Made by a program: the position numbers and the translations under genes. A stretch of 64,000 nt of DNA, taken from the NCBI RefSeq assembly GCF_003095655.1, contig NZ_CP029151.1, positions 329,501 to 393,500 of the forward strand. The letters run 5' to 3'. The notes beneath the pieces were generated by a model. The model worked only from the letters and a program-made list of their open reading frames with translations. It made no database searches and was not told the origin of the DNA. This document shows positions 2,220 to 7,599 of this stretch, in pieces (position 1 is the first letter of the stretch; every line of letters starts with the position of its first letter). Source of the stretch: Dokdonia sp. Dokd-P16. Lineage in GTDB: Bacteria > Bacteroidota > Bacteroidia > Flavobacteriales > Flavobacteriaceae.

Positions 2220-3349
2220 AAAGAACAAATATTTTTATAGTACGCTATATTTTGCTCCACAATAACTTCGGTAGAGAAATATTCCTTTACTCTTTTTCTT
2301 GCATTTTGTCCTAATAGAGATCTCAAGCTAGAATCATCAAGAAATTCTTTCATAAAATATGTCATATTTTTATGATCTAATGGATGTACCATAAAGCCTG
2401 TCTCTCCGTGAACCATCATTTCTTGCGCCCAACCTATACTTGATGTAACTAGCGCTTTTTCCATACTCATCGCTTCTAGCCAAGTCATAGGAAAGGCTTC
2501 AGCATAACTTGGTAGACATATTACGGTAGCATCATTTACATATTGCCTCACCTGATCATAGGGTACCTGACTAACAAAATGTACATTTTTTTGAAAAACT
2601 GTATCTATTTCCTTTTTAATGAGTGTAGATGTCAATTTTCCGGTAAGACTATCCTTTACATCTTTACCAAGGTAAATAAGTTCCACATTTGGAATCTGAG
2701 CAGCCAGTTCGTTAAATGCTTTAGCCAGAACTAGTACTCCTTTTTTTCTTATAATAGATCCAAAGTTTAAAATGTATCTATTATTTACAATTGATTCAAA
2801 TGGTGCAAATCGATCTAAATCTATAATATTATGAATTACTCTTATTTCAGAGCTTAGTTCAAAAAGCTCTTTAGTTTTTTTCGACGTGTATTCACTTACG
2901 CTAATTATAAATTTAGCATTTTTTAGTGCCCACTTTTCAAACAAAAAATTTTTCTTTTTTTGAGGTCTATTTTCTAAGTGACAAAAATAAGTGTCACTCC
3001 CATGCAATCTAATTACTAATGGTTTTCTTAATTTCATAAAAGCCGTTACACCAGTCCAGTCCGGTGCTTCTATGATATCTATTTGCTCACTATGTTCATT
3101 AATGTATTCTTGCAAGTATTTTCTATAGAAATAAAAGCCGCCTAGTTTGTATTTTTTTTGATAGATCAGATGAAAATTAATCTTATTCTCTTGAAATCTC
3201 AAGTATTTTTCCTGACCATAAATAAATAAGGTGACTTGATGACCTTTCTCCACGAGTGCTGTAGCTAGATTTTTTATGCTCGTTCCTATTCCTGCGCTAT
3301 TATTTACTTCCGGATGCGGATACTCTGGTGTTAAATAGGCTATATGCAT
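2216..3349 (-). CDS. Family 4 (GT-B) glycosyltransferase
   Basis: A 377-residue protein of normal GT4 length. The start MHIAYLTPEYPHPEVNNSAG followed by a GIGTSIKNLA segment is the N-terminal acceptor domain with its glycine-rich loop. The C-terminal domain holds NFGSIIRKKG and, near residues 284-292, the donor-site E-x7-E motif in EAFPMTWLEAM. Such retaining enzymes use UDP- or GDP-sugars. Its ATG overlaps the stop codon of the upstream gene by one base (TAATG), so translation is probably coupled. The specific sugar is not readable. Confidence 0.88.
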   Translation of the reverse strand: MHIAYLTPEYPHPEVNNSAGIGTSIKNLATALVEKGHQVTLFIYGQEKYLRFQENKINFHLIYQKKYKLGGFYFYRKYLQEYINEHSEQIDIIEAPDWTGVTAFMKLRKPLVIRLHGSDTYFCHLENRPQKKKNFLFEKWALKNAKFIISVSEYTSKKTKELFELSSEIRVIHNIIDLDRFAPFESIVNNRYILNFGSIIRKKGVLVLAKAFNELAAQIPNVELIYLGKDVKDSLTGKLTSTLIKKEIDTVFQKNVHFVSQVPYDQVRQYVNDATVICLPSYAEAFPMTWLEAMSMEKALVTSSIGWAQEMMVHGETGFMVHPLDHKNMTYFMKEFLDDSSLRSLLGQNARKRVKEYFSTEVIVEQNIAYYKNICSL

Positions 3350-4755
3350 TAATCAAGAATTTGATGTATACCTTCCCAAATACGCTCACTAGCTTTCTCA
3401 GGTTGTTCTGGTTTATTTACAATTCCAAACCACTTTTTAGTGACAGGCACTGGATTAAGACTACCATTAAGTAAGCCTTTAATTCCATCATAAATCTCTT
3501 CTTTATTCATTGCCCATGTGACACTTGTATCATAATCTGGCATAGATCGAAAGTGAACATACTTATAATTTTGCCCTATGTCACGTATTCCCTTTTTAAG
3601 TTGTGGCTGCTCATAGTTAGGGTAAATAGTAGGCTTATCGTGAGCCACAAAGTCAAACACCATGCTCGAGCATATGTTTACCACAAGCTCGCAGTGGTGA
3701 CAGGTATTTACTAATAAAGCAAAATCTTCTTTGGTAGGCATCACTTGATTCCATTGTGAGCCCATAGGTTTCCACAAAGGATCTATAGATGTTATGACAT
3801 CACTATAGTTAGCCAAAACCTCATCATACCTACCAGAAAAGTCAATAGGCACTTTTCTATATACAATGGCTATATCTTCACCTTCTTCTCTCAATTTACG
3901 TACAGCAATTGCTGTGTCTTCTAGATAATATTGATCCAATGGTGACGTGGTTTGATCATCCCCAGAAAAACAAATATATCGTGTCTCCTCGCTAAGGTTA
4001 TGCTCTAGACAAAATTGCTTTCGCGAAAGCAAAATACTACTATCATAATGAGGCTCAAACTGCGGAGTTCCTGTAACAAATATCTGCTCTTCTCTCGTTT
4101 TTGGATAATACTGTAAGAGCTGCTCCTTCATCAACTCAGACCATACAAAATAGTAATCTGTCTCTACCGTAGTCATTCCCTTAGGCAGGTTATCCCAACT
4201 GTATATCCAGCACGCGGTTTTAATTCCTAAATCTTTTGCAGCCAGTATAGGAGCAATGGCCTGTGTAGCGCGCTGTGTGGTGCAAAAAACAATATCTGGA
4301 CGGTGTTCTTCTAGTTGTGCTTTAAGCTCTTTGTAGCGAACAGTAGATCGTTCGGCGGTTTGCATTTGATTCATTATTCGTTGCCATCCCTTTGGTGTGG
4401 CACTAAACGTTTCATGATACTTAACAAAAGCACTTTTTAAGGCTTTCTTCAAACTATTCCACTGCAATGGAAAACGATAGGTACGATAGACATTATCCTT
4501 TTCACGCTTTCGCGAAAGCGCAAGTTCTATCCTTTTTCTTGCGTGACTAAGTGTAGGCGTTTTAGGGTGAATTCTTGTGTTTTCAATAACCACTTCTTTA
4601 TAACCCAGTTCCTTTTCTAAAGAAAATATGGTGTTATTCCAGTAAGTGATATCAAATCCTTGTGCCTCTCCTACTTCTTTAAACTTAGTAAAAGCAAAGT
4701 TGCGCAGGCCTACACCGTCAGGGAAAAGAATGAAAACTTTATTTTTTTTAATCAT
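3349..4755 (-). CDS. Putative GT-B-type surface carbohydrate transferase
   Basis: A 468-residue soluble protein beginning MIKKNKVFILFPDGVGLRNF. I see no GT2 motifs. The central ACWIYSWDNLPKG, YYFVWSELMKEQLLQYYP and IFVTGTPQFEPHYD segments and the later VVNICSSMVFDFVAHDKP resemble CDP-glycerol-transferase or UDP-sugar-transferase GT-B proteins that bind a nucleotide donor in the C-terminal half. The gene carries two exact palindrome copies (4017-4030, read LLSRKQ, and 4505-4520, read ALSRKR), the highest density in any gene here. It is preceded by the 4813-5510 repeat array and so may have its own transcription start. The function is inferred from fold-level resemblance only. Confidence 0.6.
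   Translation of the reverse strand: MIKKNKVFILFPDGVGLRNFAFTKFKEVGEAQGFDITYWNNTIFSLEKELGYKEVVIENTRIHPKTPTLSHARKRIELALSRKREKDNVYRTYRFPLQWNSLKKALKSAFVKYHETFSATPKGWQRIMNQMQTAERSTVRYKELKAQLEEHRPDIVFCTTQRATQAIAPILAAKDLGIKTACWIYSWDNLPKGMTTVETDYYFVWSELMKEQLLQYYPKTREEQIFVTGTPQFEPHYDSSILLSRKQFCLEHNLSEETRYICFSGDDQTTSPLDQYYLEDTAIAVRKLREEGEDIAIVYRKVPIDFSGRYDEVLANYSDVITSIDPLWKPMGSQWNQVMPTKEDFALLVNTCHHCELVVNICSSMVFDFVAHDKPTIYPNYEQPQLKKGIRDIGQNYKYVHFRSMPDYDTSVTWAMNKEEIYDGIKGLLNGSLNPVPVTKKWFGIVNKPEQPEKASERIWEGIHQILD
4017..4030. repeat. Palindrome copy inside a coding sequence
   Basis: Exact GCTTTCGCGAAAGC. It is read as LSRKQ in the minus-strand gene. Its right flank up to 4044 matches the flank of the copy at 17440 with one difference. 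Confidence 0.95.
4505..4520. repeat. Palindrome copy inside a coding sequence
   Basis: Exact CGCTTTCGCGAAAGCG, read as LSRKR in the same gene that carries the copy at 4017. Confidence 0.95.
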
Positions 4756-4812
4756 ATTTCATATACAGCGACTTACTGTAATAAGGTTTTTTTTGGTTGT
4801 ATTGTTTTTTCT

Positions 4813-5510
4813 CTCTAACCAAAGGAGAAATCACATTATCAAGCTCACGTAAAAAGCTCAAAATACATTATTTACTCTTCTCTGCTTACTCTGATGAGAT
4901 TTCTCGTCGCTTCGCTCTGTCGAAATGACGACTTCTGCTCTTCTCTTCTTACTCTGATGAGATTTTATTTTGCTCTAACCTTTTGTCATTTCGACGAAAG
5001 GAGAAATCACATTATCAAGCTCACGTAAAAAGCTCAGATACATTGCTTACTCCTCTCTGCTCACTCTGATGAGATTTCTCGTCGCTGCGCTCTGTCGAAA
5101 TGACAAGTTCTGTTATACTTACCCTATAAAATTTCATTTTGCTCTAGCCTTTGTCATTTCGACGAAAGGAGAAATCACATTATCTAGCTCACGTAAGAAG
5201 CTCAAATACACTGCTTACTCTTCTCTGCTTACTCTGATGAGATTTCTCATCGCTTCACTCTGTCGAAATGACGACTTCTGCTCTTCTCTTCTTACTCTGA
5301 TGAGATTTTATTTTGCTCTAACCTTTTGTCATTTCGACGAAAGGAGAAATCACATTATCAAGCTCACGTAAAAAGCTCAGATACACTGCTTACTCTTCTC
5401 TGCTTACTCTGATGAGATTTCTCGTCGCTTCACTCTGTCGAAATGACGGGTTCTGCTCTTCTCCACTCACGATGATGAGATTTCTCGTCGCTTCACTCTG
5501 TCGAAATGAC
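4813..5510. repeat. Four-unit tandem repeat array (about 160-175 bp units)
   Basis: Units begin with CTCTAACC or CTCTAGCC at 4813, 4973, 5142 and 5316, giving periods of 160, 169 and 174 bp. Units two to four open with GTCATTTCGACGAAAGGAG (the first unit keeps only AAAGGAG of it); all run through ATCAAGCTCACGT or its variant and end in GATGAGATTTCTCGTCGCTT and CTCTGTCGAAATGAC. The opening and closing parts are partly reverse complements (GTCATTTCGAC against GTCGAAATGAC), so each complete unit can fold into a long hairpin. The last unit has a second copy of the closing part (5472-5510). The array fills the 812-base gap between the NeuB gene and the next gene and would be transcribed with the operon. 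It has no tandem spacers of CRISPR type. Confidence 0.9.
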
Positions 5511-5567
5511 TGCATCTACTTTTAGTAAGCAATCGCATATTAAACGAGCGCTTTCCTTTAATATCTT

Positions 5568-6443
5568 CTAAGCTTTTCTATACTTTAACTTATCTCGCTG
5601 TACTTGCTCAATAGGCAAGATATCTGTTGCTTTATAAGCGAGTGCTTGATACACCGCCTTTAAATCTCTAGAGAGCTTCCTCATTCCTGCTGGTTCCAGT
5701 GATGCACTGTGATCTGTACCTTTCCAAGTACGGTCTAGTGTATAGTGGCGTTCTACAATGTTTGCACCTAAGGTATAAGCAGCAACATCTACTGCAATAC
5801 CTAGATGGTGACCAGAAAACCCTATGTGCTTTACACGATCGCCATACTTCTCTATGAGCGTTTTAATATCCAGCAAACAAACATCTGGAAATGGTACTGG
5901 ATATCCAGATGTACAGTTATATAGAACCAGATCTTTCCCTCTTTTATGCTTTTCAAAAAACTGTACTAGCTCCTCGATCTCATCTCTAGTAGTCATACCA
6001 GTAGAGCAGTGAATCTCTCCTTTGTAATTCTCACATAACCATCCTAGCATTTCGTAATGGTTATTACAAGCACTTGGTATTTTTATAAATTCTGGATGAA
6101 GGCCTGCAATTTCCTTTGCACTCGTTGTATCCCAAACAGAAGTTGCATAGGTTATCCCTAGGTCCTCACAATACTTTTTAAGCTCTGCGTGCTGATTCAC
6201 ATCAAACTCAAGAAACTCTCTATGCGCTCCATAAGAGTCTCCATAAGAATTTACAGGATTAGGATGTGGTGCTTCATATTGTTCTTTAGTAAGAAGTTCT
6301 ATATTATGTCGCTTCTGGAATTTTACAGCATCTACATTACAGAAGATTGCCGCTACTTTAATCATTTCCTTTGCGATTTCCATATCGCCTTTATGGTTTC
6401 CGCCTATTTCTGCTATCGTATAAGGCGCTTTGTAATTACTCAT
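5568..6443 (-). CDS. neuB: NeuB-family nonulosonic acid synthase (no SAF domain)
   Basis: A 291-residue TIM-barrel protein. It opens YTIAEIGGNHKGDMEIAKEM and contains VDAVKFQKR, FIKIPSACNN, HCSTGMTTRDEIEE, YNCTSGYPVPFPD and IGFSGHHLGI, then ERHYTLDRTWKGTDHSASLE, all marks of the NeuB domain that condenses phosphoenolpyruvate with an N-acyl hexosamine (or its 6-phosphate) into a sialic-type acid. The family is usually about 345 residues with a C-terminal SAF (antifreeze-like) domain; here the protein stops after the barrel. The start overlaps the end of the CMP-sugar synthetase gene by 8 bases. Whether the product is Neu5Ac, Kdn, legionaminic or pseudaminic acid cannot be told. Confidence 0.88.
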   Translation of the reverse strand: MSNYKAPYTIAEIGGNHKGDMEIAKEMIKVAAIFCNVDAVKFQKRHNIELLTKEQYEAPHPNPVNSYGDSYGAHREFLEFDVNQHAELKKYCEDLGITYATSVWDTTSAKEIAGLHPEFIKIPSACNNHYEMLGWLCENYKGEIHCSTGMTTRDEIEELVQFFEKHKRGKDLVLYNCTSGYPVPFPDVCLLDIKTLIEKYGDRVKHIGFSGHHLGIAVDVAAYTLGANIVERHYTLDRTWKGTDHSASLEPAGMRKLSRDLKAVYQALAYKATDILPIEQVQRDKLKYRKA

Positions 6444-7599
6444 ATCGGTTATTGTATTTTATAATAAAGTCACAGGCCTCGCGTATCGCTCCTTCTGCAC
6501 TATTGTTTTGTAATATGATATCTGCATGGTTCTTAATAGGCATCGTCGCATTTGAAGGTGTAAGTGACCATCCTGCTGCACAAATGTTTGCAAGATCATT
6601 CACATCATCACCTATATATGCTATTTCAGAAAAATCAATCCCACGATCTGTAGCAATTCTAGAAAGCAGACTATACTTGTCCTTCACTCCTAGAAACACG
6701 TCTTTAATTTTTAATTTCTTCATTCGGCTGGCAACTATTTGGGAATCTTCAGACGTCATTACCATTACCTCAACATTATATTGTCTCAAAATCTCAAGTC
6801 CCATACCATCGCGCATATCAAACTTTTTCATCAGTTCGCCGTCTGCACCATAATAGATACAACCGTCTGTAAAAACGCCATCTACATCTAGGATAAGATA
6901 TGAGATACGAGCGCTACCTTTTTTTGTCTTGAGTCTAGCCGCTAGCAATTCCTCCACGATTTTCCAGTCGGTCAGCGTGTCTATCTCTGTAAGACTATCC
7001 TCAGGCATGTGTACCGTAGCTATTTTACCGCTAATTCTATTTCCGCTTTTGCGAAAAGCGTCACGCGTGGTCACATAGCAAGCTCCATTCTCAATAAGTA
7101 ACCCATCAAAATCTTGCCTACGAGGTCTGCTAAACACATCATAATTTTGAGGTGTGCCATCTGCATTCCAAGTAAATCGGTGTGTATTTACCACCGTAAG
7201 AGCCGAATCATTATCAGTACCTGACGCCACGGCATCTAAACAAGCATTAATATCTGCTGAAGTTGTAAAAGGTGATGTTGCTTGAAGTAAACAGAGCACA
7301 TCAAAATCTTCTTTTAAATCAGCTACAAACTCCTGCATCCCCATTTCTGTAGATGCGGTATCAGTAGCACTCTCTTCACTACGTTTTACGGCTTTTACTT
7401 TATCTGTCCAGTGATATTCTTTTTCTACAAAAGCGATGATATCCTCATCATCTGTAAAGATATAAGTGGTAGCTAGCTGTGAAGCGATAGCTTCACCCAG
7501 CACCCAGCAAAATAGCGGGCGACCTAGGAGTTTCTTTTTATTTTTACCTGGAATGCCTTTTGAGCCTTTGCGCAGGGGTATAAAACCGATGCTTTTCAT
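6436..7599 (-). CDS. CMP-nonulosonic acid synthetase fused to KdsC-like HAD phosphatase
   Basis: About 387 residues from the ATG at 7597-7599, chosen because MKSIGFIPLRKGSKGIPGKN is the conserved N-terminal CTP-binding loop; an upstream ATG (7641) would add 14 unlikely residues. Residues 1 to about 225 are a cytidylyltransferase (LLQATSPFTTSADINACLD, LTEIDTLTDW). The rest is a class C0 HAD phosphatase: YLILDVDGVFTDG with the nucleophile Asp, VMTSEDSQIVASRMKKL, VKDKYSLL and IGDDVNDLA. The pair plausibly removes the 9-phosphate of a nonulosonic acid phosphate and then activates the sugar with CTP. A degenerate palindrome (7044-7060) lies in the first domain, read AFRKSG. It sits directly before the synthase gene. 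Confidence 0.88.
   Translation of the reverse strand: MKSIGFIPLRKGSKGIPGKNKKKLLGRPLFCWVLGEAIASQLATTYIFTDDEDIIAFVEKEYHWTDKVKAVKRSEESATDTASTEMGMQEFVADLKEDFDVLCLLQATSPFTTSADINACLDAVASGTDNDSALTVVNTHRFTWNADGTPQNYDVFSRPRRQDFDGLLIENGACYVTTRDAFRKSGNRISGKIATVHMPEDSLTEIDTLTDWKIVEELLAARLKTKKGSARISYLILDVDGVFTDGCIYYGADGELMKKFDMRDGMGLEILRQYNVEVMVMTSEDSQIVASRMKKLKIKDVFLGVKDKYSLLSRIATDRGIDFSEIAYIGDDVNDLANICAAGWSLTPSNATMPIKNHADIILQNNSAEGAIREACDFIIKYNNRYE
7044..7060. repeat. Degenerate palindrome copy
   Basis: CGCTTTTGCGAAAAGCG, like the family consensus but with one extra base in each arm region and a mismatched centre. Lies in frame inside the CMP-sugar synthetase gene. Confidence 0.6.

Follow-up and report, generated by a model that had tools for sequence, protein, structure and literature searches.

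A tandem array of REP-like hairpin dimers in a neuB operon of Dokdonia, and a GIY-YIG nuclease as its putative partner

Introduction

What fills the junction between two genes of one operon that abut in related bacteria? In the window analysed here, the whole stretch of 64,000 nucleotides from Dokdonia sp. Dokd-P16, the interval that separates neuB from a glycosyltransferase-like gene is occupied by a unit of 168-175 bp, repeated 3.8 times. We consider it probable that this array consists of non-autonomous REP-like dimers whose putative partner, a stand-alone GIY-YIG nuclease, has its gene at another locus of the same genome. An earlier note, made from the letters of this DNA, did not contain the reading of a mobile repeat family.

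Results

Anatomy of the array

Tandem Repeats Finder places one array at 4821-5483, with a period of 175, 3.8 copies and 88% matches; its score of 1058 is far above that of every other tandem repeat in the window. The neighbouring genes all lie on the minus strand, with neuB transcriptionally upstream, its stop codon 57 bp from the array, and three genes, from 4755 down to 735, downstream. The earlier description of a tandem array of hairpin-forming units inside an operon is borne out, as is the claim that the units had diverged after duplication. When a decayed half-unit is counted, the array reaches approximately 4766. Its features are as follows:

3349-4755, minus strand: glycosyltransferase-like gene, which directly follows neuB wherever the array is absent
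4766-4820: decayed half-unit at the edge nearest the glycosyltransferase-like gene, aligning to the CTTACTCTGATGAGATTT part of the unit (D3)
4821-4929: unit 1, opening half without GTC tag; closing half complete at 4898-4929 (minus)
4985-5104: unit 2, head-to-head dimer; opening half 4985-5008 (plus), closing half 5073-5104 (minus)
5153-5272: unit 3, head-to-head dimer; halves 5153-5176 (plus) and 5241-5272 (minus)
5328-5447: unit 4, head-to-head dimer; halves 5328-5351 (plus) and 5416-5447 (minus)
5479-5510, minus strand: last closing half, complete (family D2, 63-bp offset)
5568-6443, minus strand: neuB-type sialic/pseudaminic acid synthase gene (Pfam NeuB, 2.2e-66)

The repeated half-unit reads GTC, ATTTC, a loop of 10 or 18, GAAAT and C, and a complete unit is an inverted pair of such halves with the GTC tags outermost, in REP terms a head-to-head dimer. 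The dimer spacer is also conserved and carries a tail of the nCATnnGAGTAAG type. Complementary ends had been ascribed to all four units; this holds for units 2-4, in which both ends are kept, but not for unit 1, which lacks the opening GTCATTTCGACG: about 16 bp are missing between CTCTAACC and AAAGGAG. Nor is the closing half of the last unit the extra element it had been taken for: it sits 63 bp from the preceding closing half, and degenerate copies with the same offset are found in the spacers of units 1 and 3. Allowing at most one mismatch, GTCATTTCGAC has 9 matches in 64 kb against 0.56 expected, and its exact copies (8 of 8) lie inside the array. A palindrome, TTTCGCGAAA, was also observed at 17 places in the window against 0.08 expected.

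The conserved structure

Each unit folds as RNA into a more stable structure than its shuffled versions on both strands, with z between -3.0 and -4.4 for complete units. In an alignment of 18 dimers, however, the whole-unit stem contains 17 G-U cells and no double-sided changes, whereas the local hairpins are Watson-Crick in 180 of 180 cells and the second of them carries double-sided changes (TT/AA, CT/AG, CC/GG) exceeding all 500 shuffles and all slid versions. A scan made without a pairing requirement found half-units paired in 82 of 85 cases, against 43.5 expected if the two sides were independent. Such covariation counts can be inflated by kinship of the sequences and serve as supporting values, not probabilities. 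What is conserved between copies is the short hairpin within each half, not the whole-unit stem. Identity with a known RNA family was considered and rejected, Rfam giving no match in 4000-6500 up to E = 1 and none at the gathering score for five related loci; the same applies to an array of intrinsic terminators or promoters, as no terminator-like site lies within the array and promoters there are not in excess.

Distribution and history of the neuB junction

The genome search for further units that the earlier note had proposed was productive: with a relaxed pattern, 29 half-units occur at seven sites in the 3.62-Mb genome (reversed control, 0), and the half-unit pattern is present in 14 of 18 Dokdonia genomes. 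Inspected sites are intergenic and mostly near stop codons; a search of a plasmid collection returned no copies of the neuB array.

At the neuB junction itself, four Dokdonia genomes (G003, G016, G002, G011) have no insert, the next gene following within a few bp of the neuB stop codon, and the gap is also short in two Flavobacteriaceae MAGs. An array-filled gap of 337-815 bp with one to four units is found in G000 (the genome of the window), G006, G008 and G012, which are closest relatives by neuB identity. Across species, the orthologous junctions are thus empty or measure 337, 593, 766 or 815 bp, a variation in unit number of the kind anticipated if the array expands, contracts or recombines. 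Judged from these alignments, the array is an insertion specific to one Dokdonia branch and variable in size, and the simplest reading of its history would be one gain followed by unit-number change. The decayed edge at 4766-4820 has a homologous counterpart in loci L077-L079 and L060; with the array edges at neuB decayed, a clean target duplication is unreadable. Another hairpin repeat (CCTAGACTTTTTTGGTTACTTTTTTTGGCAATG...) was observed in the neuB junction at L077:2724, L078:2729 and L064:1248.

Longer gaps occur at the neuB junction of Nonlabens (L063-L070, L073, L074), several with hairpin repeats unrelated to the array, as if the junction were a hot spot. One of these, L070, has a GIY-YIG gene inside a hairpin-repeat array.

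A GIY-YIG gene enclosed by dimers of the same family

In the genome of the window, a gene for a single-domain GIY-YIG nuclease (G000:C1:1530411-1530638; PF01541, 63.4 bits against a cut-off of 22.6) is enclosed by dimers of the array's family, which can be aligned with the window units over their whole length. The junction in which it lies, tex-hdac, is empty in G005 (22 bp), holds one dimer in G006 (135 bp) and four in G008 (614 bp), and contains dimers together with the nuclease gene in G000, G016 and G009 (688-985 bp). Dimers without a gene would be the expected residue of internal deletion. A dN/dS of 0.16 between G000 and G016 indicates purifying selection on the gene. At E<=0.001 it is missing from G006, G008 and G012, all of them array carriers, and since it occupies one orthologous locus in three genomes, any recent movement of its own would be conjectural.

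A different nuclease was observed in G000, where the leucyl-tRNA synthetase gene (L021:1500-4970, minus strand) contains a DUF559 nuclease domain in frame (aa 339-441), edged by inverted CCCCCTAGCCCCC-type hairpins that resemble repeats in L024; this is possibly another nuclease-repeat pair.

GIY-YIG genes and their flanking repeats

Counting a repeat as shared when the two 400-bp flanks of a gene score 18 or more against each other, 30 of 50 single-domain GIY-YIG genes of Dokdonia have shared flanking repeats, compared by Fisher tests with 0/15 fused GIY-YIG genes, 1/157 other ORFs at the same loci and 5/725 random windows. Judging by the sequences that the flanks have in common, we assign about 14 of the 30 to the tRNA type and the remainder to hairpin repeats; roughly 40% of the single-domain genes show no strong shared repeat. 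A phylum-wide best-hit sample gave shared repeats at 14 of 27 genes (control windows, 0/21). At non-orthologous loci, similar nucleases tend to have repeats in common: the Mantel r is 0.19, and the highest value in 2000 permutations is 0.11. This permutation test, which uses the capped score, is significant; the rank correlation is weak (rho 0.05, p 0.08).

A tRNA gene lies within 400 bp of 16 of 51 GIY-YIG genes and of 0 of 15 controls. In a GIY-YIG tree, whose 98 columns limit support for deep forks, the tRNA-adjacent genes all fall in one clade, together with a single unlabelled row, and UPF0213-like proteins, which are without repeats, are separate from the hairpin-associated ones. Members of the tRNA-adjacent clade often stand between partial tRNA copies and are sometimes tandemly repeated (Dokdonia loci L133-L151, L163 and others; G000:C1:1774782 and 2020803). 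GIY-YIG genes in tandem with regular spacing were also seen at G291:C1:120132-122135 and G188:C1:1733881-1734727.

Outside Bacteroidota, a tblastn search of the plasmid collection with a Dokdonia GIY-YIG protein, using no repeat information, gave 33 records, of which 16 were inspected and near-identical ones omitted. In 11 of the 16, canonical CGTC REPs flank the gene on either side within 400 bp, and two more have them on one side, against a background of 9 CGTC REP hairpins in 280 kb (forty-kb stretches from seven of the same records). The relatives come from Rhizobium, Shinella, Azospirillum, Aeromonas, Neisseria and others, with REPs of the type CGTCATTCCCGCGCAGGCGGGAAT in Neisseria and Aeromonas and CGTCATCCTCGGGCTTGACCCGAGGAT in Sinorhizobium and Shinella, among other types. 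By the GIY-YIG genes of Planktothrix, Spirosoma and Novosphingobium, clear CGTC REPs were not seen. In seven of the 11 both-sided records the gene lies between nearest repeats that point towards one another, and so stands where the spacer of a head-to-head dimer would be. GIY-YIG genes are thus associated with hairpin repeats in several phyla. As to the records themselves, three (L242, L249, L256) are plasmid-labelled, 2-5 Mb long, carry almost no annotated features and are probably chromosomes, and in the Planktothrix plasmid (L251) the GIY-YIG gene is flanked by an MmeI-type restriction enzyme and DISARM drmA.

Discussion

The dimer anatomy of the array, the covariation of its hairpins, its lineage-specific presence and its variable unit number are direct observations, and it is the mobile character of the family that we propose on top of them. 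A REP-like dimer would have entered the junction between neuB and the glycosyltransferase-like gene on one Dokdonia branch, after which unit number would have altered. RAYT transposases are thought to spread GTAG REPs in a manner that may serve as a model here: the GIY-YIG nuclease would recognise the tagged hairpin and make a nick or cut at that point, and further intergenic sites would acquire copies of the element through repair. We infer these steps of recognition, cutting and mobilisation from the company that gene and repeats keep. Separation of two otherwise abutting genes is probably a side effect.

This proposal may be extended, and here our confidence is evenly balanced, to stand-alone GIY-YIG nucleases as the enzymes dedicated to mobilising CGTC-type REPs in Bacteroidota and Proteobacteria at large. 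REP dimers would then derive from REP-nuclease-REP elements by internal deletion, and the window array would be one such non-autonomous cluster. We know of no mobilising enzyme for the CGTC REPs, which include the abundant Neisseria dRS3 and rhizobial repeats. If the extended proposal is true, GIY-YIG would be a second enzyme fold behind REP-like elements, the elements would form a class that runs parallel to REP/RAYT but uses a nuclease of another fold, and such a partner would explain the continued invasion of operon junctions by small hairpins. A nuclease gene between CGTC-type repeats in several phyla is, in any case, a directly testable candidate enzyme.

The relation between gene and repeat could also be the reverse, with GIY-YIG genes as parasites that home into existing hairpin repeats or tRNA genes, the repeats spreading otherwise and the array being an ordinary REP cluster without a dedicated enzyme. 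The tRNA-adjacent clade, with its partial tRNA copies, hints that structured sites may be targets into which the nuclease homes rather than elements that it mobilises, and arrays without a GIY-YIG gene fit as well. We regard homing as a serious rival but find it rather unlikely, because the repeat family tracks the nuclease subfamily at non-orthologous loci and the position of the gene in the place of the dimer spacer suits gene-less dimers as internal-deletion derivatives.

The proximity of the array to the neuB stop codon within a co-directional operon, and the ease with which its units fold as RNA, would suit a regulatory or mRNA-structure element selected in the operon, its hairpins stabilising the upstream neuB mRNA or cutting downstream expression. 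This seems to us quite improbable, given that other Dokdonia lack the array at this junction, that its family recurs at six further unrelated sites, that it has no terminator, and that the Nonlabens repeats at the neuB junction are unrelated to it. Passive tandem duplication, with a history neither mobile nor linked to a nuclease, is scarcely credible: slippage or unequal exchange can expand tandem repeats, and unit number does vary, but homologous dimers are dispersed over seven sites, their hairpins covary and the orthologous junctions of relatives are empty. Mobile REP-like dimers with a putative GIY-YIG partner remain our preferred reading.

Stand-alone GIY-YIG proteins of the UPF0213/YhbQ type (1zg2, 1ywl) and I-TevI (1mk0) belong by sequence to the fold family of the candidate partner; the sampled UPF0213-like clade differs in having no flanking repeats, and at the GIY-YIG genes considered here no intron was seen. 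A full-text search, with preprints and most subscription papers outside its scope so that absence is not proof, returned no literature linking GIY-YIG genes with REPs or dRS3.

The CGTC-tagged REPs, among them Neisseria dRS3 and Rickettsia RPE-4 and RPE-6, were described without associated transposase genes or a dedicated enzyme, their discoverers leaving the mobilising enzyme as an open question (Di Nocera et al., 2013, PMC3733652), and this is what makes the GIY-YIG association notable. The array resembles them in its tag, all eight complete halves starting with GTC and seven being preceded by C or T; in the paired A and T of the first two stem positions (ATTTC/GAAAT in all halves); in head-to-head dimers, which predominate among CGTC REPs and are seen in units 2-4 and the 18 aligned dimers; in placement beside 3' ends of genes; and in having no associated HUH transposase. 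It departs from them in stem length (5 bp, against their 8-9), in loop length (10 or 18, against their 4-5), in a tail of CAC or CTC followed by AT (nCAT) where CCA is the rule in most, and in a linked GIY-YIG gene. As far as its motifs tell, the array is CGTC-like and not a strict member, its stem, loop and tail being unlike those of the four published families.

With the REPIN/RAYT system (REPtron, GTAG REPs), the array shares non-autonomous units built from two tagged hairpins in inverted orientation, their clustering, and one candidate cognate nuclease between repeats. A RAYT/IS200-type transposase was rejected as partner: PF01797 has no match in the genome of the window, and the inspected flanks of its matches in four other Dokdonia carry no array-type hairpins. 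The tag is GTC and not of the GTAG type, and in place of a Y1 (HUH) transposase the genome offers a candidate GIY-YIG nuclease; in operation, the array is comparable to a REP cluster.
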